Of a stretch of 64,000 nt of DNA, positions 4,459 through 15,071 are shown piece after piece. The stretch is from Synechococcus sp. PROS-7-1. Lineage in GTDB: Bacteria > Cyanobacteriota > Cyanobacteriia > PCC-6307 > Cyanobiaceae. The notes under the pieces are model-generated. The model was not told where the DNA came from, searched no databases, and worked only from the letters and a program-made list of their open reading frames with translations. Every line of letters begins with the position of its first letter. Position 1 is the first letter of the stretch. The stretch spans positions 2,500,572 to 2,564,571 of the forward strand of contig NZ_CP047945.1 in NCBI RefSeq assembly GCF_014279795.1, given 5' to 3'. The position numbers and the translations under genes were made by a program.

Positions 4459-5133
4459 TTAAGCAACCAGACGATTTAGTTGCGGCAAATCGGCAAACGA
4501 ATCCCGCCATTGCTGGGCCCAGAGTTCCTGGCTCCGCTCATACACATTCATCAGTTCGATAACTGCTGAATCACGAAAATCAACCCTTAGATCCAACAGT
4601 GGGAATGCTGCTTCTCCACTGATTTGCAGTGCTGCTGAAGTCGAAAATGGGGAGCGGCCGTCCCCTCCAGCAGCTTCACCTGCCATCAGGGCCGTCATCA
4701 GGCGGCGGCCCAGCTTCCAACATGGATCGCTCGCCAGAAAAGCCTGTTCCATGGCAATGAGAACCGCCTCACCCACGAGATAGTTGCCAGCCACGGAGAG
4801 GTTCATTTGGTGGCGATGACCTGCCCAAGGTTCACAGCTGTCCCCTGTCCAGCAAGCGGTACGACCTTGCGCATCGATCAGATGGAACTGGCGGCGTACG
4901 CGGAGTGGGTCTTCAGCGAGCAGGCTGGCCAGCACCACATCCGCGTCAGCACTCTGTTCGAGCCGTTCCAGGCCGCAGATCCCTAGATAGGGATTGGTGT
5001 GGGCTTGTGTCGCAACAGCGCCCACTCCAGAGCGGATATGGGGAACCGTGGAGCCCACTGCGAGATGACAAGTGGCAACGGCAACTCCGAAACGACCATT
5101 GCTGGGATCACGGGCAACGATCGAGAACGTCAT
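4459..5133 (-). CDS. DUF1028 family protein (putative Ntn-hydrolase-like)
   Basis: 224 residues, a full-length DUF1028 domain (COG3342): MTFSIVARDPSNGRFGVAVA at the N-terminus, then GVGAVATQAHTNPYLG, AQGRTACWTGDSCEPWAGH and MNLSVAGNYLVGEAV. DUF1028 proteins have no established biochemical role; the fold is grouped with N-terminal-nucleophile hydrolases. Here Thr2 would become N-terminal after Met removal, as required for such catalysis, but that is inference. It overlaps the 3' end of the M20 hydrolase by 4 bases, so the two are probably translated together, and it closes the minus-strand cluster that begins with the symporter. Confidence 0.85.
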   Translation of the reverse strand: MTFSIVARDPSNGRFGVAVATCHLAVGSTVPHIRSGVGAVATQAHTNPYLGICGLERLEQSADADVVLASLLAEDPLRVRRQFHLIDAQGRTACWTGDSCEPWAGHRHQMNLSVAGNYLVGEAVLIAMEQAFLASDPCWKLGRRLMTALMAGEAAGGDGRSPFSTSAALQISGEAAFPLLDLRVDFRDSAVIELMNVYERSQELWAQQWRDSFADLPQLNRLVA

Positions 5134-6419
5134 GAGAGCACACGATCCAATCGTTCAAGGGTGTGCAAAAGAACGACGGTTCCTGCAAGACACTGACTAT
5201 CACTGGTGAATTCAGCTGCTGAATGGCTCAAACCTTCGCGGCTGGGCACAAAGATCATTCCCATGGGCCAACGCCGCCCAATCTCTTGGGCGTCATGGCT
5301 GGCACGGCTCGGAAGCCGACTCAGGCTCAACCCCAAATCTTCAGCCACTGATTCAATCGTGGCCATCACCAGCGCGTCAGCGGGAGTGGGCGCCACCTGA
5401 AACTGCGGCTCCAACTGGATTGCACAGCCGGTTTGCAAGCCAATGGATTCAAGCGCGTCCTGCAAGCAGGACACCAATTGGTCCAGAACAGCGGGATCCA
5501 GATCACGAATGTCCACCGTCATCGACACGGAGCCTGGAACAACGTTGGCGGCATTGGGCCAAACCTCCAGACGTCCCACCGTCGCCACAGGATCACCGGG
5601 ATGACACCGCGCCATCTCTTCCACCGCCAGCACAATCCGGGAGGCAGCGGCGAGGGCGTCCTGACGGAGTCCCATCGGCGTTGTGCCGGCATGGTTGGCC
5701 TGACCCTTCACATGAATGCTGAAACGTCTCTGCCCGACGATGCCCTCAACAATGCCAATGGCATCGCGCCGCTGCTCGAGTACAGCACCTTGCTCAACAT
5801 GCAGTTCAAGAAAGGCTGCAACAGCTAAATCAGATCGCGCCGCCGAGGGCAGGGATGGCCAGTGACCACCGATTCGCTCCAGGTTGATGTCAATCGGATC
5901 CCCATTGCTGGTGGCGTAAGCCGATGGGTCCATCGATGCCGTGCCAGCCATGCCCTTACAGCCGACCATCGTTGACTCTTCATCAGCGAAAGCCACGACC
6001 TCGAGGGGGTGTCGTAGACGCTGCCCCGCATCGCTCAGGGCACGGACGCATTCCAGGCCCGCCAAGACGCCAAGGACACCATCAAAACGACCACCTGTTG
6101 GGACGGTATCCAAGTGCGACCCCGTCATCAGCACCGGCAACGAGGGGTCTTGCCCCTCGAGCCGGCCAATCAAATTGCCAGCGGCATCCACACGCACCTG
6201 CATTCCGGCCTCTTGCATCCAGCACGCGAGTTGGTCCCGACCTTGCACGTCGGCAGCACTAAAGCCGCGGCGGCAAATGCTCCCATCGGCTTGAAGGCCA
6301 ATGGCCGCCATGGACTCGAGCGAATCGATCAATCTGTCGCGCCGAGGCTGAACACCTAACCGCTCCCGATCGGCTCCAGCTGGAGCGATTTGTGAGCGAT
6401 GGATCAACAGCTCGGGCAA
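5130..6419 (-). CDS. M20 family Zn-dependent hydrolase (N-carbamoyl-L-amino-acid hydrolase / allantoate amidohydrolase type)
   Basis: 429 residues of the hydantoinase/carbamoylase family, dimetal amidases that split N-carbamoyl amino acids or allantoate, releasing CO2 and ammonia. Metal and catalytic motifs are in order: GSHLDTVPTGGRFDGVLG, FADEESTMVGCKGMAG, LELHVEQG, the lid-domain QANHAGTTPMGLRQDA, and SREGLSHSAAEF near the C-terminus. No ATG is available before residue 37; TTG 6419 is the best start because the family homology (RLIDSLESMAAIG) begins upstream of that ATG. Substrate cannot be read from sequence. It overlaps the DUF1028 gene and follows asnB by 95 bases. Confidence 0.88.
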   Translation of the reverse strand: MPELLIHRSQIAPAGADRERLGVQPRRDRLIDSLESMAAIGLQADGSICRRGFSAADVQGRDQLACWMQEAGMQVRVDAAGNLIGRLEGQDPSLPVLMTGSHLDTVPTGGRFDGVLGVLAGLECVRALSDAGQRLRHPLEVVAFADEESTMVGCKGMAGTASMDPSAYATSNGDPIDINLERIGGHWPSLPSAARSDLAVAAFLELHVEQGAVLEQRRDAIGIVEGIVGQRRFSIHVKGQANHAGTTPMGLRQDALAAASRIVLAVEEMARCHPGDPVATVGRLEVWPNAANVVPGSVSMTVDIRDLDPAVLDQLVSCLQDALESIGLQTGCAIQLEPQFQVAPTPADALVMATIESVAEDLGLSLSRLPSRASHDAQEIGRRWPMGMIFVPSREGLSHSAAEFTSDSQCLAGTVVLLHTLERLDRVLS

Positions 6420-6514: not shown

Positions 6515-8539
6515 TCAAACGGGCATCAATACCCGCCAACCGAGGTGATCAGCCTGCTCGCGAGCCTGCGCTGGCACATCGGCCGCCACAAACATCCGAT
6601 GCAGCATCTGAACACCCAAGAGGTGGTTGATCACAGCGTCCATCTGAACCCTCTCGGCGTCGGTGGTGGCGGGGTCGTCGTGGCGCGCAAACAAGGCACG
6701 TACCCCCTCTTTGCTCAACAACCCAGCCGCATCAATCGCTTCATCACTCAGGTAGTCATCGGCCAATTGCTTCATCTGCGCCCACTTCTCAGGCTCGGTG
6801 TGGGCCGGGGGCGCCATGAAGGCAAATTTCTCACGCTTGTAGAGCACCTCCGGCAGCAAGCCAGCCATCGCCTCCCGAAGCACGTATTTCTCGGTTTTGC
6901 CCTTGATCCGTAGCTCCGGAGGCACCTGCACCGCAGCGGCCGCGAGGTGGTGATCAAGGAAAGCCGGCCGAGCCTCCATGGAATTGGCCATGTCGACGCG
7001 ATCACCTCCCCAGGTGAGAATCTGGCCTTCCAACATTGTTTTGATCCAGACGTACTGAGCCTTGTCGAGGGCATGGCGGCCCTCGAGTTGCTGCGGATTC
7101 AACTGCTCAGCAATGGCCTTACCCGGCGAATACTCCGCTAACGCCTGGCGGTGCTCTTCAGCCAGCAGATCCGGCACAAGCGGCGCGCAGGCCAGCCAGG
7201 GCTGCAGACAACTGGGGGTGAAACCCACCACGGCATCAAGGTCGGGATCATCCACCTGATCAGCCGCCAACATCGCTCCCTGCACTAGGGAATTGTTGGT
7301 TTGAAGCAGAGATTCCCAGTCCTGGCGGTCGCTTTGCGGCAGATCATCCAAACCATGGAGGAACATGTCGCGCCGGAAGGCGGGGTAGCCACCGAACAGC
7401 TCATCTGACCCTTCCCCGGTCATCACGACCTTGTAATCGACGTTGTTGACGTGGCGACTCATCAGATATTTGGCCACAGCCAAGGTGTTGTAGATCGTGC
7501 GCTCGGTGTGCCAGAGCGTCTGTTCCATGTGGCCGTACAACTCACGACCCGACAGACGCATCACGTCCTGTTCGGCACCCGTGGCCTCTGCCATCTCGGC
7601 AGCAATGGGTGTTTCGTCGTAGCGCGCATCATCGAATCCGATCGTGAAGGCCTTGACGGGACCCTGACTCACCGCCGACGCCAGACCGAGGATCGAACAA
7701 CTGTCGATGCCGCCGGAGAGATAACAACCAACCGGCACATCCGCCACCATCCGCATCTCCACCGCTTCCAGCAGAGCAGCCCGCACATTGGCAATGTGAT
7801 CGGCCTCGGTGAGGGTGCTGTCCCGCTGATCCAAACGGGGAAAATCAACATCCCAATAGGTGGACTCCGACACCTCAAGCCGGTCACCCCTGCGTTGCAC
7901 CTTCAGCACATGCCCGGGCTGAACCTGGTGCACCCCGGCAAAGGCGGTCGTTCCCGGGACCATGGTCTGCATCAATTGATGAAAGAGACCCTCCGAGGTG
8001 AAGCGTCGCTCCACGGCCGGGTGAGCAAACAGCACCTTCAACTCGGAGCCGAACACCAATCCCTCCGGCGTCATCGTCCAGTACTGGGGCTTGATGCCGA
8101 AGCGATCCCTCACGAGATAAAGACAGTCATCCACCGCATCAAACAAAGCGAAGGCGAATTCCCCCCTCAGCAAGGGCAACGTGGACTCGAGACCTTGGCG
8201 TTGATAGAGACGCAGCAGGATCTCAGAATCACTCTTGGTGCAGAAACGCACCCCCTGTGCCGTGAGGTCAGCCCGAATGCGCTGAAAGTCGTAGAACTCA
8301 CCGTTGTGCGCCATCAGCACCTGACGGTCGTCGCTGAGGAACGGCTGCCTTGCCCGCGATTCGTTCAGATCAATGATCGACAACCGGGCATGGCAGAAGC
8401 CGACCCCGGCAGCGTCGATGCATTCCACACCGAAACCATCCGGTCCGCGATGGGACTGAATGGCCGCCATGTTGACCAACAACTGACGATCCAATGTCTG
8501 ACGACGGTCCGCCAGAAATACACCTCCGATTCCGCACAT
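6515..8539 (-). CDS. asnB: AsnB-like glutamine-dependent amidotransferase (asparagine synthase family)
   Basis: 674 residues, longer than E. coli AsnB (about 554). The N-terminal class II glutaminase starts MCGIGGVF, so Cys2 becomes the nucleophile after Met removal; SHRGPDGFG and HNGEFYDF follow. The synthetase domain has the PP-loop YLSGGIDSCSILG and TGEGSDELFGGYPAFRRDM. The enzyme uses ATP and glutamine to amidate a carboxylate. It may be ordinary asparagine synthetase, but position between an ATCase-like gene (9-base gap) and a carbamoylase suggests a dedicated acceptor, as for the AsnB-like enzyme of the N-acetylglutaminylglutamine amide osmolyte pathway. Family is certain; acceptor is not. 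Confidence 0.88.
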   Translation of the reverse strand: MCGIGGVFLADRRQTLDRQLLVNMAAIQSHRGPDGFGVECIDAAGVGFCHARLSIIDLNESRARQPFLSDDRQVLMAHNGEFYDFQRIRADLTAQGVRFCTKSDSEILLRLYQRQGLESTLPLLRGEFAFALFDAVDDCLYLVRDRFGIKPQYWTMTPEGLVFGSELKVLFAHPAVERRFTSEGLFHQLMQTMVPGTTAFAGVHQVQPGHVLKVQRRGDRLEVSESTYWDVDFPRLDQRDSTLTEADHIANVRAALLEAVEMRMVADVPVGCYLSGGIDSCSILGLASAVSQGPVKAFTIGFDDARYDETPIAAEMAEATGAEQDVMRLSGRELYGHMEQTLWHTERTIYNTLAVAKYLMSRHVNNVDYKVVMTGEGSDELFGGYPAFRRDMFLHGLDDLPQSDRQDWESLLQTNNSLVQGAMLAADQVDDPDLDAVVGFTPSCLQPWLACAPLVPDLLAEEHRQALAEYSPGKAIAEQLNPQQLEGRHALDKAQYVWIKTMLEGQILTWGGDRVDMANSMEARPAFLDHHLAAAAVQVPPELRIKGKTEKYVLREAMAGLLPEVLYKREKFAFMAPPAHTEPEKWAQMKQLADDYLSDEAIDAAGLLSKEGVRALFARHDDPATTDAERVQMDAVINHLLGVQMLHRMFVAADVPAQAREQADHLGWRVLMPV

Positions 8540-8548
8540 CAGTTCGCC

Positions 8549-9676
8549 TCAGATCACATCCATCACCCGCTCGGCACGGTTCACCATGCAGGTGAGCAGT
8601 GCCATGCGCAGAAACACCGCCCCACGCGCCTGGCTGAAATACCAGTTGTGCGGCGTGTCATCCAAACAGGTGCTCAGCTCGGGGCCCCGGGCCAGGGGGT
8701 GCAGGACGATCGCCTCAGGCTTGAACGGCAGATCCCGGGTGAGACAAAATCCACCGCCATGCACCTCATAGCTGTCGCCAACCCAGGCGATCGCGTTGAT
8801 ATAAACAACATCCAGCTCGGGAATCTCAGCCGACAGATCTGAACTGCAGCGGATGGTCACACCGCTCGCTTCCAGCTCTTCCAGTTGACCCGGATCAAAC
8901 AGGGGCGATTCTGACTCAACCCCGGCCGCATGAATCACCACCACCTCCTCAAGGATCTGGGGAAATTTGCTGAGGATCCGCAGCAATGAACGCACAGTGC
9001 GCATCCGTGACGGCAAACCGATCACCCCGATGCGGATCCGATCCTCGGGCGACACCTCTGATAAAGCCAGGCTGGGACGCCACTTGAAAATCGTGTAGAG
9101 ATCCGCCATCGCCTGCGTCGGATGCTCATCAATGCCATTGCCGGCATTGATGATCGGAATCCGGAGAGTCGCAGTCATGGCATAAACAGCATCCGGATTG
9201 CTGTCGCGCAGCACCACACAGTCGCCGTAGTTGTTGAACATGTGCGCCACATCCTCCAGCGACTCCCCCTTGGCGATTCCGGTGGTGCTGCGGTCGGTGA
9301 TGTTGATCGAATCACCGCCAAGGCGATGCCAGGCGCTATCGAAAGAGAGGCGTGTGCGCGTGCTGGGCTCGTAGAACGCGTTGATCAGGATCTTGCCGGT
9401 GAGCGGCGTGTTGTGACGGCAGTAACGGTCAGGGTTGCTCTCAAATTTCGCGGCCAATCGAAACAGCTGAAGCAGAGTTTCGGGTCGGAAGGCCTGCATC
9501 GACACAACATGCTGGTCGATCAGATCCAACAAGGGCTCGCCATCTTCAGCGATGGCAGCCAGAAGCTCCTGAGGCTGGTCATGACCGAACACATCGGGAC
9601 CCATCGGCCGAAAGCGGAGAGGCGCCGATACCTCCTCAATCACTGCTGTGCCGGGATCTGCCATAAGCAAGTGCAT
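8549..9676 (-). CDS. aspartate carbamoyltransferase-like protein with altered amino-acid site
   Basis: About 375 residues, longer than PyrB (about 310) by an N-terminal extension. Carbamoyl-phosphate site intact: YEPSTRTRLSFDSA, a Lys in the 80s-loop region (GIAKGES), LRDSNPD and the HPTQ motif in DEHPTQAMADL. The C-terminal DDTPHNWYFSQARGAVFLRM is ATCase-like. The aspartate side-chain site differs: where E. coli PyrB has TRVQ (Arg229, Gln231) this protein has NAIA, and HPLPR is HPLAR. I infer a carbamoyltransferase using another amino acceptor. Start uncertain: TTG 9736, ATG 9676 and ATG 9664 are in frame. Confidence 0.82.
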   Translation of the reverse strand: MHLLMADPGTAVIEEVSAPLRFRPMGPDVFGHDQPQELLAAIAEDGEPLLDLIDQHVVSMQAFRPETLLQLFRLAAKFESNPDRYCRHNTPLTGKILINAFYEPSTRTRLSFDSAWHRLGGDSINITDRSTTGIAKGESLEDVAHMFNNYGDCVVLRDSNPDAVYAMTATLRIPIINAGNGIDEHPTQAMADLYTIFKWRPSLALSEVSPEDRIRIGVIGLPSRMRTVRSLLRILSKFPQILEEVVVIHAAGVESESPLFDPGQLEELEASGVTIRCSSDLSAEIPELDVVYINAIAWVGDSYEVHGGGFCLTRDLPFKPEAIVLHPLARGPELSTCLDDTPHNWYFSQARGAVFLRMALLTCMVNRAERVMDVI

Positions 9677-9839
9677 CAACACCCGACGAGAAAATCGCGT
9701 GCTTGTGCTGTGAATCACATCTTCTCTCGATAACAAGAGTTGAGTGCGGACGTCTAGCTCGAAAGACGTTCTTTAGAAAAAGGGTTAAAAAATAGTTTGC
9801 GTTAATACAAAACACCTCAAATATGTTCGAAACGAACAC

Positions 9840-9991: not shown

Positions 9992-11422
9992 TCACCCCTC
10001 CTCTTGCAAACGATTGAAATCAAACTGTTCTGGCTGCCAGCGACTGCCCACTGCCATCACGACGGCCGAAACGGCTGCGGAGAACACCGCCGCGCAATAG
10101 GGAGCAATCAGAACGTAGGCCGTCAGACCCACAGCAGTGCCGGCCAGCATGGCGACAATCGCAGCCCAACGATTGGCGGAGGACCAATAGAGACCGCAAG
10201 CCACAGGCCAGACCGTGGAAGCCACCAACGCACCGGTGAAGAACAACACCGTCGCCAGCGAGTCCAGCCGCGGCCAAGACAGGGCCAAGGTGACCACAGC
10301 CAGGCCAACCACCATCTGCCGTGCCGCCTGCTTGAGCTGAGCATCGCTCGCCTGGGGACGCAGCAGACGGAAATAAACGTCTTCAGCCAGCAGATCCGCG
10401 GTGGAGGCCAACAGGGAGTCCAAGGTGGACGTCAGTGAGGCAAAGACCACCACAAACACCAGTGCAGCCCCACCCGCGCCGAGGAGATCCGCTGCCATCA
10501 CCGGGAACACCATGTTCACCTGCTCTAGCGGCAGCTCGCGCGCCAACGCCACCAAACCGATCGATCCCGTCACCAGCGGGACACTCATCCAGGCCAATCC
10601 CCCCAAAACAAAAGAGGTCATCACCACACTGCGCCGGCTGGCGAACACGCGTGACCACCAGATGTTGTTGTGAAAGACCTCACCCATCGAGAACAGGGCT
10701 GAATTCCAGGCGATCAACAGACCGGCGGGGAGTAAGAGATCAAGACGGTCGGGATGCTCAGCGATTAAGAGGGCATGCACCTCCGGCATCGGGAACTGAC
10801 GAAACGCCAGCACCGCCACCACCGCCAGCAGCACCATGATCAGGAGCGATTGGATGAAATCGGTTCCAATCACCGCCCGCATGCCGCCGAACAGCGTGTA
10901 AACCGTTGCGACACCGATCACCACCACCATGCCCACGTGATAATCAAAACCGGAGAGCGCCTGAAGCAACAGGCCGGCCCCCATGGCCTGGGTCATCAGA
11001 AAACCCAGCGTGTAAATGGCGGTGATCACCATGAACACCCACCAGGCCAAACGTCCGTATCGCAGCCGAATGAAATCACCACTGGTGCGGCCATTCGGCA
11101 TCAGCTGCTTGATGCGTGAAGCCAGCGGCGCGAACAGGATCAACCCCAGACCGGCCAGGGCATAACTGAACATGCCCCAAAGACCGGTTCTGTAGCCGAA
11201 TTCCGGGGCCAACAGTGTGGTGTTGCCCGTCACCCAAGACGCCATCAAGGTGGCTGTGCTCAAGGCCAACCCGATGTTGCGGCCCGCCAGCATGTAGTCG
11301 TCGGCATCTCCATTACCGCGGCGGCCCCAGGTCATCCCCAGGGCGATCCACAGCACGGAAAACAACACAACCAGGGCCCAGGCGATGCCAGGCGCCAGAA
11401 ATGGTGTGGCTTCAGCGGGCAT
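9992..11422 (-). CDS. sodium:solute symporter family transporter
   Basis: About 476 residues with some 13 hydrophobic segments, an SSS-family (SLC5-type) Na+-coupled importer. Family hallmarks: DYMLAGRNIGLALSTATLMASW after helix 1, GNTTLLAPEFGYRTG, the GGMRAVIGTDFIQS loop, and FASLTSTLDSLLASTADLLAEDVY in the second half. The last is typical of the group containing urea/proline/pantothenate permeases. Substrate is unknown; location next to urease, carbamoylase and ATCase-like genes points to a nitrogen-rich solute such as urea, a ureide or an amino acid. ATG 11422 chosen; GTG 11440 is also in frame. It overlaps small membrane proteins at both ends. Confidence 0.88.
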   Translation of the reverse strand: MPAEATPFLAPGIAWALVVLFSVLWIALGMTWGRRGNGDADDYMLAGRNIGLALSTATLMASWVTGNTTLLAPEFGYRTGLWGMFSYALAGLGLILFAPLASRIKQLMPNGRTSGDFIRLRYGRLAWWVFMVITAIYTLGFLMTQAMGAGLLLQALSGFDYHVGMVVVIGVATVYTLFGGMRAVIGTDFIQSLLIMVLLAVVAVLAFRQFPMPEVHALLIAEHPDRLDLLLPAGLLIAWNSALFSMGEVFHNNIWWSRVFASRRSVVMTSFVLGGLAWMSVPLVTGSIGLVALARELPLEQVNMVFPVMAADLLGAGGAALVFVVVFASLTSTLDSLLASTADLLAEDVYFRLLRPQASDAQLKQAARQMVVGLAVVTLALSWPRLDSLATVLFFTGALVASTVWPVACGLYWSSANRWAAIVAMLAGTAVGLTAYVLIAPYCAAVFSAAVSAVVMAVGSRWQPEQFDFNRLQEEG

Positions 11423-11537
11423 CGGCCGACCCCCGATCACGCCAGTGCAGATGACCCTGAATGATCATCGCCACCGTGGCCAGAGTCACCACAGCACCGA
11501 GGGCAAAGATCAGTCCAGCCCAGAGATTGTCATCCAA
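11412..11537 (-). CDS. small single-span membrane protein before the symporter
   Basis: 41 residues starting at TTG 11537, preceded by a strong GGGGAGGA ribosome-binding sequence. The protein reads MDDNLWAGLIFALGAVV, then TLATVAMIIQGHLHWRDRG, a single hydrophobic span with a short acidic N-terminus and a charged tail. Its stop overlaps the symporter ATG region by about 11 bases, so the two are translationally coupled. No family recognised. It is the first gene of the minus-strand cluster and is divergent from the ATP-grasp gene. Confidence 0.6.
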   Translation of the reverse strand: MDDNLWAGLIFALGAVVTLATVAMIIQGHLHWRDRGSADAR

Positions 11538-11737
11538 AGCGAATCCTCCCCTTCAGCAGATCTCAGACAAGCAAATCGCGGAGTTCGCATGCTTTCACCG
11601 ACTAACAACAAAGTCGCCAGGGCTACCTGAATCACTGGCTGCCAGTGGCTTGATGCCTCCAATCTCGAAATGTGTAGCAATCACAACCCGCAGGGACCTG
11701 CTGGAGTTTTTGGATGCATCTGTTAATGACTCAGGCG

Positions 11738-13210
11738 ATGTTCACCGAGTACCGACCAACCCAGGGGTACGACGAATATTTCTGCCGTAAACAGTACGCT
11801 CCCCGTGCCGATCTAGAGCCACTGCTGTCCTCCCTCGGCGCCATGGGGTTAGCGGAACTGAATCGCAGTCATGCATCAGCGAGCAACCTGTTGCGGCGCC
11901 TTGGAGCCACCTTCCGACTCAACGGATCAGGGCTTCATGGCGGAGAACGCATCCTTCCCTTTGATCCACTGCCAAGACTCATTCACCGTCAGGAATGGTC
12001 CGTTCTGGAGCGCGGATTGGTGCAACGCCTGGAGGCCATTGATCAGTTTCTGGCGGACGTTTATGGACCCCAACGGATCCTCAATGATGGTGTGATTCCC
12101 CGCGAGGACATGGAGAGCTCCCAGGGCTGGCGGCCCCAGATGCAGGACATCGCCGTGCCGCTGAACCGCTGGTGCCACATCTCCGGTCTGGATCTGATCC
12201 GCGATGGCGACGGCACCTGGAGAGTCTTGGAGGACAACCTGCGCTGCCCCTCCGGCGTGGCCTATTTCCTTGAGAACCGCCGGGTGATGAAGCGCTTGTT
12301 CCCGAGCCTGTTTGCGGGCCGGACAGTGCAGCCGATCGACGATTACCCCTCCCATCTTTTGCGCACGCTGCAGGATCTGGCCCCTTGGAGTGATGCTCCA
12401 CGGGTGGTGCTGCTGACCCCCGGCGTGTTCAACAGCGCCTATTTCGAGCACAGCTATCTGGCCCAGCAAATGGGCATTGCCCTGGTGGAAGGCCGCGATC
12501 TGATCTGTGAGGACGGACGCGTCTGGATGCGCAGCACTGCCGGCAGGGAACCTGTGGATGTGATCTACCGGCGCATCGATGACGATTTCCTCGATCCGAA
12601 CGTCTTCCGGCGTGATTCGATGCTCGGTGTCCCCGGGCTCATCGATGCCATGCGCTCCGGTCGAGTAGCCATCGCCAATGCCCCTGGGAGCGGGGTCGCC
12701 GACGACAAGCTGATCTATGCCTACGTGCCGGCAATGATCCGTTATTACCTCAACGAAGAACCGATCATTGACAACGTCCCCACCTATCTCTGTTCAAGGG
12801 ACGACGACCTCCGTTTTGTGCTCGAGCATCTCAACGAACTGGTGGTGAAGTCTGTTGCCGAAGCAGGCGGCTATGGAATGTTGATCGGGCCCCATGCCAG
12901 CACTGAGGAGATTGAGAGCTTCGCGGCGAAGATCAAGGCACATCCGCGCAATTTCATCGCTCAGCCCACCCTGCAGCTTTCCACAGTTCCATCCCTCAGC
13001 GAAGGGGAGCTGTACCCCTGCCATGTGGATCTGCGCCCCTACGTGCTCCGGGGTAAAAGCGACTGGGTCAGCCCCGGCGGCTTGACTCGTGTAGCCCTGA
13101 AACGCGGTTCCTTGGTGGTCAACTCCTCCCAGGGGGGCGGCTGCAAGGACACCTGGGTGGTCAGCGACAACACAGTCACCGCCGAATGTGCGGAGCCGGT
13201 GCCGTGCTGA
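11738..13210 (+). CDS. circularly permuted ATP-grasp protein (COG2308, DUF404/DUF407)
   Basis: About 490 residues of the circularly permuted ATP-grasp family, predicted peptide or amide ligases. Conserved blocks: YRPTQGYDEYF at the start, LHGGERILPFDPLPRLI, VLEDNLRCPSGVAYFLENRR, YRRIDDDFLDP, ANAPGSGVADDKLIYAYVP and the nucleotide-binding VVKSVAEAGGYGMLIGP. I start at ATG 11738, where the family pattern begins (MFTEYRP); ATGs at 11714 and 11726 are possible. It overlaps the alpha-E gene by 7 bases. Known genomics (Iyer, Aravind and colleagues) ties this family to alpha-E and transglutaminase partners in a predicted peptide synthesis and turnover system whose product is unknown. Confidence 0.9.
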   Translation: MFTEYRPTQGYDEYFCRKQYAPRADLEPLLSSLGAMGLAELNRSHASASNLLRRLGATFRLNGSGLHGGERILPFDPLPRLIHRQEWSVLERGLVQRLEAIDQFLADVYGPQRILNDGVIPREDMESSQGWRPQMQDIAVPLNRWCHISGLDLIRDGDGTWRVLEDNLRCPSGVAYFLENRRVMKRLFPSLFAGRTVQPIDDYPSHLLRTLQDLAPWSDAPRVVLLTPGVFNSAYFEHSYLAQQMGIALVEGRDLICEDGRVWMRSTAGREPVDVIYRRIDDDFLDPNVFRRDSMLGVPGLIDAMRSGRVAIANAPGSGVADDKLIYAYVPAMIRYYLNEEPIIDNVPTYLCSRDDDLRFVLEHLNELVVKSVAEAGGYGMLIGPHASTEEIESFAAKIKAHPRNFIAQPTLQLSTVPSLSEGELYPCHVDLRPYVLRGKSDWVSPGGLTRVALKRGSLVVNSSQGGGCKDTWVVSDNTVTAECAEPVPC

Positions 13211-14187
13211 GCCGTGTGGCCGATTCGCTGTACTGGATCAACCGGTATATCGAGCGGGCCGAAAACATCTCCCGATTTCTGGAAGTGAGCGAAGCCATGG
13301 CTCTGGACTGCCCCCCGGGCAGCGCTGAGCCTTGGCTTCCCCTCGTGGATGCCAATGGAGACCGCCAACGCTTCGACGAAACCTATCCACTGGGAAGTCC
13401 AAACGATGTTGTTGGCTTTCTGCTGCTGGACCGCGACAACCCCAACAGCATCGTGAGCTGCATCGCCAAGGCCCGTGAAAACGCTCGCCAAATCCGCGAT
13501 GTAATCACCACAGAAATGTGGGAGCAGCTCAATGACCTCTATTGGAATGTTCAAGACGGTGAAGCGCTCTGGCAGGAACCGGATCAGGAGCAGCTACGCA
13601 GCATTCGTCGCGGTTGCCAGCTCTTCTATGGCATCACGGACGTGACCCTCAGCCGTGATCAAGCCTGGCTGTTTAGCCAGCTGGGGCGGCTGATCGAACG
13701 GGCGGACAAAACCTCCCGCATTCTCGATGTGAAGTACTTCCTGCTGTTGCCAACGCCAACGGAGGTGGGCGGGGTTCTCGATGAACTGCAGTGGATCTCA
13801 CTGCTGCGCACAGCTGGGGCTTATCAGATGTACAGACAGAGCGTTCAGCAGGCGATCACACCCGCATCGGTGGCACGATTCTTGCTGCTGGATCCAATTT
13901 TTCCCCGCTCGGTCCGCTTCTGTCTGCAGGAGATCAACACCACACTGGAGCGCATCCGGCCAGGTCCCCATGCAGGCCCCCCGGATGATCTTGAGTGCCT
14001 ACGCGGCCAGTTGTTGGCTCAGTGGAGCTATACCCGCATCGATGCAGTGATTGACCGGGGACTGCATGAGGCCGTGGATCAACTTCAGAGCGACCTCAAC
14101 AAGCTGCATGAACTCATCCACCGTCGCTACTTCACGACCACCGACTTCGGCTCCATCCCCACAGACCCGTCATGCGCGCTCAGCTGA
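13204..14187 (+). CDS. alpha-E domain protein (COG2307, DUF403)
   Basis: About 327 residues, all-helical alpha-E family. Typical opening after the GTG at 13204: LSRVADSLYWINRYIERAEN, then DRDNPNSIVSCIAKARENAR, a second helical repeat with QLGRLIERADKTSRILDVKY, and DPIFPRSVRFCLQEI. GTG 13204 is preferred to ATG 13186 because homologues start at LSRVADS. It overlaps the ATP-grasp gene by 7 bases and the transglutaminase gene by 16, so the three are one translational unit. The biochemical role is unknown; it always accompanies the permuted ATP-grasp protein. Confidence 0.9.
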   Translation: MLSRVADSLYWINRYIERAENISRFLEVSEAMALDCPPGSAEPWLPLVDANGDRQRFDETYPLGSPNDVVGFLLLDRDNPNSIVSCIAKARENARQIRDVITTEMWEQLNDLYWNVQDGEALWQEPDQEQLRSIRRGCQLFYGITDVTLSRDQAWLFSQLGRLIERADKTSRILDVKYFLLLPTPTEVGGVLDELQWISLLRTAGAYQMYRQSVQQAITPASVARFLLLDPIFPRSVRFCLQEINTTLERIRPGPHAGPPDDLECLRGQLLAQWSYTRIDAVIDRGLHEAVDQLQSDLNKLHELIHRRYFTTTDFGSIPTDPSCALS

Positions 14188-15071
14188 TCCACCGTCTCAA
14201 CTATCAATACGAGGCTCCGGTTCAACTGGGGGAACACCGCCTCTGTCTGCGGCCCAGGGCCCAGGGCCATCAACGACTGATTCAGCATTCCCTGCAGATC
14301 TCACCGGTTCCTGTTCACAGCCATGAGCTGTTGGCAGCCAGTGGTGATGCAATCGAGCGTGTGCGCTTCCAAGGGGCGACCGCTTCACTTCAGATCGAAG
14401 CCAGGAGCCTGGTGGAAACCCGGCAAGCCACTCCCCTGCTCGATTGCTTCAACGGCCTTGAGCCTCCGCTTCCCTATCCCAGAGGCCAGTTGAACCACGA
14501 CCTGTTGGGTGCCCTGGAAGGTTGGCTACCCAACGGACAGCATGATCCTTCTGCGGTGGAACTGGCTCAGGACGCCTTGATGGGAGGCAACCAACAGGCA
14601 CTGCCCTTTCTTCAGCAACTGATGGAGATGATTCAGGACCGGGTGAAGTACACCCAACGGCATGTGGGCCCGGCCTGGCCGGCGGGCCGCACCCTGCGCG
14701 AGCGGGTTGGGTCCTGCCGCGATCTGGCGATGTTGATGATGGAGTGCTGCCGCAGTGTTGGCCTTCCAGCTCGGTTTGTCAGCGGTTACCACCTGGCCGA
14801 GCCTGCCCCTGAGCGGTACGACCTGCACGCCTGGACCGAGATCTATCTGCCCGGTGCCGGCTGGCGTGGATTCGATCCCAGCGCTGGTGGAGAAATCAAC
14901 TCCCGCTACATCGTGCTGGCGAGTTCATCGAAGCCCGATCTCACCGCAGCCGTTCAGGGCACATTCCATGGCCCGATGGCCACCGCAAGCGAACTCAGTT
15001 GGACCATCGAAGCCGTTGTGGAGTCCGAGTCGTTGTCGGCACCCATCACACCCCTGATTCAGGCTGCCTGA
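14172..15071 (+). CDS. transglutaminase-like cysteine protease (COG1305)
   Basis: 299 residues: a beta-rich Bact_transglu_N domain from the start (LIHRLNYQYEAPVQLGEHRL CLRPR, residues 4-28) and a transglutaminase core from about residue 150. The triad is visible: Cys in RVGSCRDLAMLMMECCRS, His in YDLHAWTEIYLPG and Asp in GWRGFDPSAGG. Such proteins usually act as papain-like peptidases or amidases rather than cross-linkers. Third gene of the ATP-grasp/alpha-E set, likely to cleave the product of, or a precursor for, the ATP-grasp ligase. It converges with the cupin-like gene with a 13-base overlap. Confidence 0.9.
   Translation: MRAQLIHRLNYQYEAPVQLGEHRLCLRPRAQGHQRLIQHSLQISPVPVHSHELLAASGDAIERVRFQGATASLQIEARSLVETRQATPLLDCFNGLEPPLPYPRGQLNHDLLGALEGWLPNGQHDPSAVELAQDALMGGNQQALPFLQQLMEMIQDRVKYTQRHVGPAWPAGRTLRERVGSCRDLAMLMMECCRSVGLPARFVSGYHLAEPAPERYDLHAWTEIYLPGAGWRGFDPSAGGEINSRYIVLASSSKPDLTAAVQGTFHGPMATASELSWTIEAVVESESLSAPITPLIQAA

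Follow-up and report, generated by a model that had tools for sequence, protein, structure and literature searches.

The stretch of Synechococcus sp. PROS-7-1 DNA that we analysed (64,000 nucleotides, referred to below as the window) carries a cassette of five genes on one strand, which encode a sodium:solute symporter (SSF), a carbamoyltransferase (CTase), an AsnB-type amidotransferase, an M20 hydrolase and a DUF1028 protein (Table 1). The AsnB gene starts 9 nt past the CTase stop, and the DUF1028 and M20 genes overlap by 4 nt. In its longest form, the CTase open reading frame spans 8549-9736 of the minus strand and begins with a TTG at 9736; a second upstream in-frame start, an ATG, lies at 9676, and the ATG equivalent to 9664 is the start of many aligned CTase orthologues. 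A first-pass annotation, made from the sequence alone, had set the upper bound of this minus-strand gene at 9676, which is an ATG, and its overall observation of an unusual carbamoyltransferase is confirmed here.

Table 1. Genes of the cassette and active-site features of the CTase, in window coordinates
Feature	Position	Strand	Basis
CTase (proposed glutamine N-alpha-carbamoyltransferase)	8549..9664	minus	ORF, Pfam, alignment
AsnB-type glutamine-dependent amidotransferase (proposed 1-carboxamide synthase)	6515..8539	minus	ORF, models, residue alignment
M20 hydantoinase/carbamoylase-family hydrolase (proposed N-carbamoyl removal)	5130..6419	minus	Pfam, NCBIfam, PDB match
DUF1028 protein (proposed amidase of recycling branch)	4459..5133	minus	Pfam, relation to 2imh
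Sodium:solute symporter (SSF)	9992..11440	minus	Pfam
STRTR, carbamoyl-phosphate loop	9350..9364	minus	alignment
Loop Lys (E. coli K84 position)	9269..9271	minus	alignment
HPTQ (H134/Q137)	9113..9124	minus	alignment
Arg of MRTV (R167 position, expected alpha-carboxylate anchor)	8999..9001	minus	alignment
NAIA replacing TRVQ, aspartate beta-carboxylate site lost	8786..8797	minus	alignment
HPLAR	8687..8701	minus	alignment

Both carbamoyltransferase domains of the window CTase score above their Pfam cut-offs (PF02729, OTCace_N, 138.2 bits; PF00185, OTCace, 44.5 bits), indicating that it is a member of the aspartate/ornithine carbamoyltransferase superfamily. It misses the cut-offs of all aspartate and ornithine carbamoyltransferase models, of 17 NCBIfam models listed, with 187.0 bits against 236.95 for the PyrB equivalog TIGR00670 and 94.2 bits against 280.85 for the ornithine carbamoyltransferase model TIGR00658. 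The motif DxxxSMG is characteristic of ornithine carbamoyltransferases, and the window CTase has N for its D. The top database names are aspartate carbamoyltransferase. A search of plasmid sequences with tblastn matched 151 records, none at 60% identity or more; the best of the 30 listed matches reaches about 33%, and those that are annotated are named aspartate carbamoyltransferase (four regions were opened, one of them annotated). The first-pass annotation had advised a check for a separate canonical pyrB, and one was found: the genome holds three PF02729 genes, namely ArgF, canonical PyrB and the cassette CTase. It had also called the N-terminal extension unusual for PyrB, an argument that proved weak. 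The extension is kept among cyanobacterial CTases (GPDxxG...PQxLL) and differs in the gammaproteobacterial ones, and an extension as such is not unique, as shown by PRK11891, a 430-position aspartate carbamoyltransferase model that matches the window CTase from model position 89 onward, and by a Comamonas gene of 1281 nt annotated as aspartate carbamoyltransferase. The structure prediction that it had suggested gave a poor AlphaFold model (mean pLDDT 60.4, from an 11-sequence alignment).

We compared the active site with that of E. coli PyrB in an alignment of 48 distinct cassette-type sequences, comprising the window CTase, 18 others from cyanobacteria and 29 from Gammaproteobacteria, with one relative of 49% identity (L152) included. 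The carbamoyl-phosphate site that the first-pass annotation had described as intact is indeed so: S52, T53, R54, T55, K84, R105, H134 and Q137 are unchanged in 48/48 sequences, as is R167, and S80 is Gly in all 48. In PyrB, Arg167 holds the alpha-carboxylate of aspartate, and Arg229 and Gln231 hold its beta-carboxylate, a point made in part by the first-pass annotation. At the latter positions the family has lost its aspartate contacts, since R229 is replaced by Ala in 39 of the 48 sequences and by Ser in the other 9, and Q231 is Ala in every one; R234 is Gly in 47/48 and Ser in the remaining one. Because the replacement of TRVQ by NAIA (or NSIA) extends to 48/48 relatives, it is a fixed trait of the family and not a chance event. 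Arg229 and Gln231 are both present in the PyrB of the same genome and in the PyrBs of Ectothiorhodospira mobilis (L062) and a Thioalkalivibrio (L061). The reading of HPLAR in place of HPLPR was correct as sequence and weak as an argument: Pro268 is also absent, with Asn in its place, from the canonical PyrBs of the window's genome and of E. mobilis, so HPLAR is not diagnostic.

Given the roles that these residues have in PyrB, the pattern suggests that the acceptor is an amino acid whose side chain is uncharged and whose alpha-carboxylate is free. The position of Tyr165 is occupied by Arg in 44/48 sequences, and this extra Arg could perhaps bind an acidic side chain, which keeps glutamate possible as the acceptor. 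The earlier proposal that the amino substrate is probably not aspartate is thus supported, although indirectly, by the loss of the residues and by the separate PyrB. These data bear on one rival explanation, that the CTase is a second, divergent aspartate carbamoyltransferase serving as a backup PyrB. In its favor are the best database names. Against it stand the sub-threshold TIGR00670 score, the loss of Arg229 and Gln231 throughout the family, and the canonical PyrB in this genome and in E. mobilis. As a candidate it was rejected, since it meets neither the TIGR00670 cut-off nor the requirement for Arg229 and Gln231, and we regard it as all but excluded.

Among 388 sampled genomes of the window's class, 20 contain the CTase (E <= 1e-40), and all of these belong to the same family as the window. 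We extended 18 of the 20 non-window matches and then 10 of 12 further genomes. CTase, AsnB, M20 and DUF1028 occur together in all 28 extended loci, and SSF is present in 16 of the first 18 and in all 10 of the further ones. UreC lies within ~8 kb of the cassette in 9/18 extended loci. Because the other nine have no UreC within this distance, the urease neighborhood appears incidental and we set urease aside as a clue to function; the cassette genes stay together whether or not urease is near. Several variants were seen. In five cyanobacterial loci (L192-L196) the DUF1028 gene is inverted and lies between AsnB and M20, in another (L198) AsnB is split in two pieces, and one genome (G361) has two full five-gene cassettes, one near urease, with a CTase 85% identical to that of the window, and the other elsewhere (75%). 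Beside the symporter, on the opposite strand at 11714-15071 of the window, the first gene encodes a circularly permuted ATP-grasp protein, and the ORFs that follow we take, by eye, to encode an alpha-E protein and a transglutaminase-like protein; the ATP-grasp gene adjoins the cassette in 9/18 extended loci. The consensus of the NtcA box is GTAN8TAC, and a scan made without a shuffle control found it ahead of SSF in none of 26 regions and ahead of CTase in 6 of 28. Promoter and terminator scans returned one promoter against 2.7 expected and 12 terminator-like sites against 6.8 expected.

A carbamoyl group and an amide on one amino acid recall carbamoyl-glutamine-amide (CGA), which is accumulated by the purple sulfur bacterium E. 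marismortui, for which E. mobilis is another name (PMC1224877), whose type strain is DSM 4180T (PMC7824335). The compound was described in 1991 by Galinski and Oren (as cited in PMC1224877 and PMC3857566); a 2013 review treats it as a minor solute known from a single organism, and it gave no recognised Raman signal and is absent from the signal library (PMC3857566). The CGA hypothesis and its test were set down before the scan described here. We scanned one genome from each of 84,980 species for NAG[ND]G...HPTQ followed by N-A-[ILVM]-A at the spacing of the family, using G/C third codon positions so that the cyanobacterial copies mostly fail to match. The scan produced 11 matches, 10 in Thioalkalivibrio and one in E. 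mobilis DSM 4180. In the latter, the genes for CTase, AsnB, an isochorismatase-family hydrolase and an M20 hydrolase are adjacent, with no SSF. The CTase and AsnB are 60% and 65% identical, respectively, to the window proteins, and the M20 hydrolase is 38% identical. The three PF02729 genes of E. mobilis are ArgF (L059), PyrB (L062) and the cassette CTase (L063); since the other two are ArgF and PyrB, the cassette CTase is the only spare PF02729 gene in the strain.

The CTase does not single out the CGA-producing strain, because it is present in 41/47 genomes of the order to which E. mobilis belongs. Among 369 sampled Gammaproteobacteria, 27 match it at E <= 1e-55, of which 23 are of the cassette type (at least 62% identity) and four have only a sister type (37-45%). 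In 398 genomes of the phylum of E. mobilis there were two matches, E. mobilis itself and one relative at 49%. The cassette CTase is thus uncommon, though not a marker of one strain. We read 34 gammaproteobacterial regions, made up of 14 of the 41 order genomes, 14 further genomes of the cassette type, five places of the sister type and genome G910. In the 29 extended cassette-type loci, AsnB adjoins CTase in 27, and the contigs of the other two (L133 and L147) end at that point; the isochorismatase-family hydrolase is found in 28 and SSF in 20. The second hydrolase therefore varies by phylum, DUF1028 in cyanobacteria versus the isochorismatase family in Gammaproteobacteria, and the CTase, AsnB and M20 enzymes are the constant parts across both phyla.

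Some gammaproteobacterial copies depart from this arrangement. In genome G398 (G398:C1:1194653-1195686) the CTase is split in two pieces. A sister clade of CTase-like proteins (L142 and L148-L151; 36-42% identity in the extended loci, 37-45% in the genome sample) lacks K84 in 5/5 members and has altered STRT residues in all four that cover the loop, L150 starting after it. No AsnB match was seen in the stretches read around these genes, some of which are short contigs. The members of this clade, which we excluded from the cassette counts, are likely pseudoenzymes. One genome (G679) has a sister-type gene in addition to an intact cassette (L141), and the L142 gene is followed by what we take, by eye, to be an ORF with a von Willebrand-type domain and an ABC-type ATPase ORF.

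The cassette AsnB has the score and the residues expected of its type. The window protein scores 424.3 bits with TIGR01536 (glutamine-hydrolysing asparagine synthase; cut-off 267.1), and its best database name is asparagine synthase. Cys1, Arg49, Asn74, Asp98, SGGxDS, Glu348 and Lys449, numbered as in AsnB, where they are glutaminase and synthetase residues, are present in all 45 sequences aligned, a set that excludes L152 and to which the two loci at contig ends contribute no row. In a FastTree phylogeny, ten reference rows were split from the cassette AsnBs and L152 with support of 1.000, and L152 together with the references was split from the other 45 with support of 0.990. The references, nine of them distinct, were E. 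coli AsnB, two TIGR03104 amidotransferases, an XrtA-type paralogue, an E. mobilis paralogue and four plasmid AsnBs. The cyanobacterial copies form one clade in the CTase tree and in the AsnB tree (support 1.000 in each), which fits joint inheritance or transfer. Plasmid tblastn with AsnB matched 299 records, none reaching 60% identity, the best listed being 38%.

Assignment of the hydrolases is less clear. The best model for the window M20 protein is ErtE (NF058540, N-carbamyl-L-glutamate amidohydrolase), at 426.8 bits under a cut-off of 520. It passes TIGR01879 (hydantoinase/carbamoylase family amidase; 397 bits, cut-off 204) and, narrowly, the allantoate amidohydrolase subfamily (400.3 versus 399), and its best structural match is the N-carbamoyl-L-amino acid hydrolase 3n5f (1.1e-85). 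The E. mobilis M20 protein scores 391.2 bits with ErtE, also under the cut-off, and has the allantoate amidohydrolase subfamily as its best model (530.2 versus 399). For the second hydrolase of E. mobilis, the best NCBIfam model is biuret amidohydrolase, below cut-off, and N-carbamoylsarcosine amidohydrolase ranks fourth among its PDB matches. The DUF1028 protein is related to 2imh, a hypothetical protein. Because the M20 enzymes are so dissimilar between the phyla and allantoate models score, it is possible that the hydrolases are separate recruitments or act on another substrate; the naming of allantoate amidohydrolases among the M20 models slightly lowers our confidence in the CGA reading.

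These enzymes also allow a catabolic explanation, in which the symporter imports a ureido compound, M20 and DUF1028 cleave it, the CTase runs in reverse to yield carbamoyl phosphate and AsnB merely makes asparagine. For it speak the presence of a symporter and two hydrolases in the cassette, the inclusion of allantoate amidohydrolases among the M20 models, the urease genes (identified by Pfam) and what we take, by eye, to be nitrite reductase genes close by in the window, and the fact that no full-length AsnB-type gene other than that of the cassette was found in the window's own genome. However, urease is near in only half of the extended loci, an ATP-consuming amidotransferase is the constant partner in both phyla, E. 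mobilis keeps the cassette AsnB despite four further strong AsnB-type matches, and the symporter is absent from 9/29 cassette-type gammaproteobacterial loci. We consider this explanation very unlikely.

We favor the reading that the cassette makes and recycles CGA as a salt-protecting metabolite, and we consider it likely. The residues, the gene order, the phylogenetic grouping and the fact that the CGA producer's type strain carries the cassette are shown; the substrate, the order of steps, the roles of the hydrolases and transporter and the occurrence of CGA in cyanobacteria are inferred, and no activity or metabolite has been shown. In the proposed pathway, the CTase, as a third and dedicated carbamoyltransferase, would use carbamoyl phosphate to carbamoylate L-glutamine at its alpha-amino group, with the Arg167 equivalent predicted to hold the alpha-carboxylate and a neutral side chain sitting where Arg229 and Gln231 are missing. 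AsnB would amidate the 1-carboxylate of the carbamoylated glutamine, M20 and the second hydrolase of each phylum would break CGA down, and the SSF symporter would recover it from outside. In support, the cassette CTase is the sole spare PF02729 carbamoyltransferase of that type strain; by inference, the CTase active site also suits an acceptor that is neutral and has its alpha-carboxylate free. Against this reading, CGA is only a minor solute in its known producer, the CTase is not specific to that strain, and each CGA molecule carries four nitrogens, which is odd in nitrogen-poor water. The first-pass annotation had judged from the neighboring genes that the product is an N-carbamoyl compound, and this is supported, again indirectly, by the recurrence of AsnB and M20 in the cassette in two phyla. 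It left the product unnamed; the extension to CGA is ours and rests on inferred chemistry.

A pathway of the same type could use another acceptor, such as glutamate or asparagine, and so, in cyanobacteria if not in both groups, yield a different N-carbamoyl amino acid amide. Sequence alone does not reveal which single amino acid the pocket takes, the extra Arg at the Tyr165 position is common, and the window and E. mobilis CTases share just 60% identity, all of which leaves room for this alternative. On the other hand, NAIA (or NSIA), HPLAR and Arg167 are the same in the cyanobacterial and gammaproteobacterial groups, and it is CGA that has been reported from E. marismortui. We therefore hold a different acceptor to be unlikely, though less so than the catabolic explanation.

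A salt-protecting role for CGA can be set beside what is known of the solutes of these organisms. In the open-access literature that we searched there was no report of CGA biosynthetic genes or of cyanobacterial CGA, which is not proof of absence. The word carbamoyl has no occurrence in the main text of the picocyanobacteria and Thioalkalivibrio papers searched (supplements were not covered); the solutes that these papers name are glucosylglycerol, glucosylglycerate, betaine and sucrose, and nitrogen-free glucosylglycerate is stressed under nitrogen stress (PMC11020310). The ggpSP genes are reported in all marine, 16/17 brackish and 2/67 freshwater strains (PMC9361551). In 151 sampled genomes of the window's family, ggpS scored above cut-off in 20/22 cassette-bearing genomes compared with 42/129 others (Fisher p = 2.4e-7, uncorrected for phylogeny or genome incompleteness); 66 genomes matched and only the 62 above cut-off were counted. 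Two cassette-bearing genomes have no ggpS above cut-off. With ggpS as a marine and brackish marker (PMC9361551), we count the association as a link to salinity in favor of the CGA reading; ggpS-negative genomes need not be freshwater.

A bolder form of the CGA reading is that the CTase is specific for glutamine and that CGA is made by picocyanobacteria with genomes of the marine Synechococcus type and by some that are Prochlorococcus-like, as a four-nitrogen osmolyte or nitrogen reserve unreported from these cyanobacteria in the literature searched; here the balance of evidence tips only modestly in favor. Both names are inferred, the first from genome size, gene content and ggpS, the second (for L039 and L040) from a small genome and low G+C at third codon positions. 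We found no description of a glutamine-specific carbamoyltransferase of this sort in that literature. If the reading is true, the gene assignment makes the orphan metabolite CGA testable by knockout and heterologous expression, adds a new acceptor specificity to a classic carbamoyltransferase family, and leads one to expect in marine picocyanobacteria an osmolyte rich in nitrogen, which would matter for the organic nitrogen of the sea. Annotation would also be affected, because the best database names are now aspartate carbamoyltransferase and asparagine synthase.

Compared with known systems, the CTase shares with E. coli PyrB (best solved sequence, PDB 6yw9) its fold family, a complete carbamoyl-phosphate site and Arg167. 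Unlike PyrB, it has no Arg229, Gln231 or Arg234, has the motif NAIAWVG, and lies in a dedicated cassette separate from the genome's PyrB. The window M20 enzyme has ErtE and 3n5f as its closest matches, yet it misses the ErtE cut-off and differs in also passing, if narrowly, the allantoate amidohydrolase subfamily. In the N-acetylglutaminylglutamine amide (NAGGN) system, the nitrogen of glutamine is capped and an AsnB-like enzyme then amidates the terminal carboxylate, which is the logic proposed here for the cassette. The cassette AsnB nevertheless falls far under the cut-off for the amidotransferase of that system (TIGR03104), scoring 294.8 bits in the window and 300.7 in E. mobilis versus 570.1. 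As a separate observation, at another place in its genome E. mobilis DSM 4180 carries a genuine TIGR03104 gene (L176), which scores 984.9 bits against the same cut-off, and the strain may make both glutamine-amide osmolytes, CGA and NAGGN. The two modifications in the CGA of E. marismortui are exactly those that the CTase and AsnB would introduce; CGA was reported for a purple sulfur bacterium, whereas the cassette is common to picocyanobacteria and the bacterium that yielded the compound.
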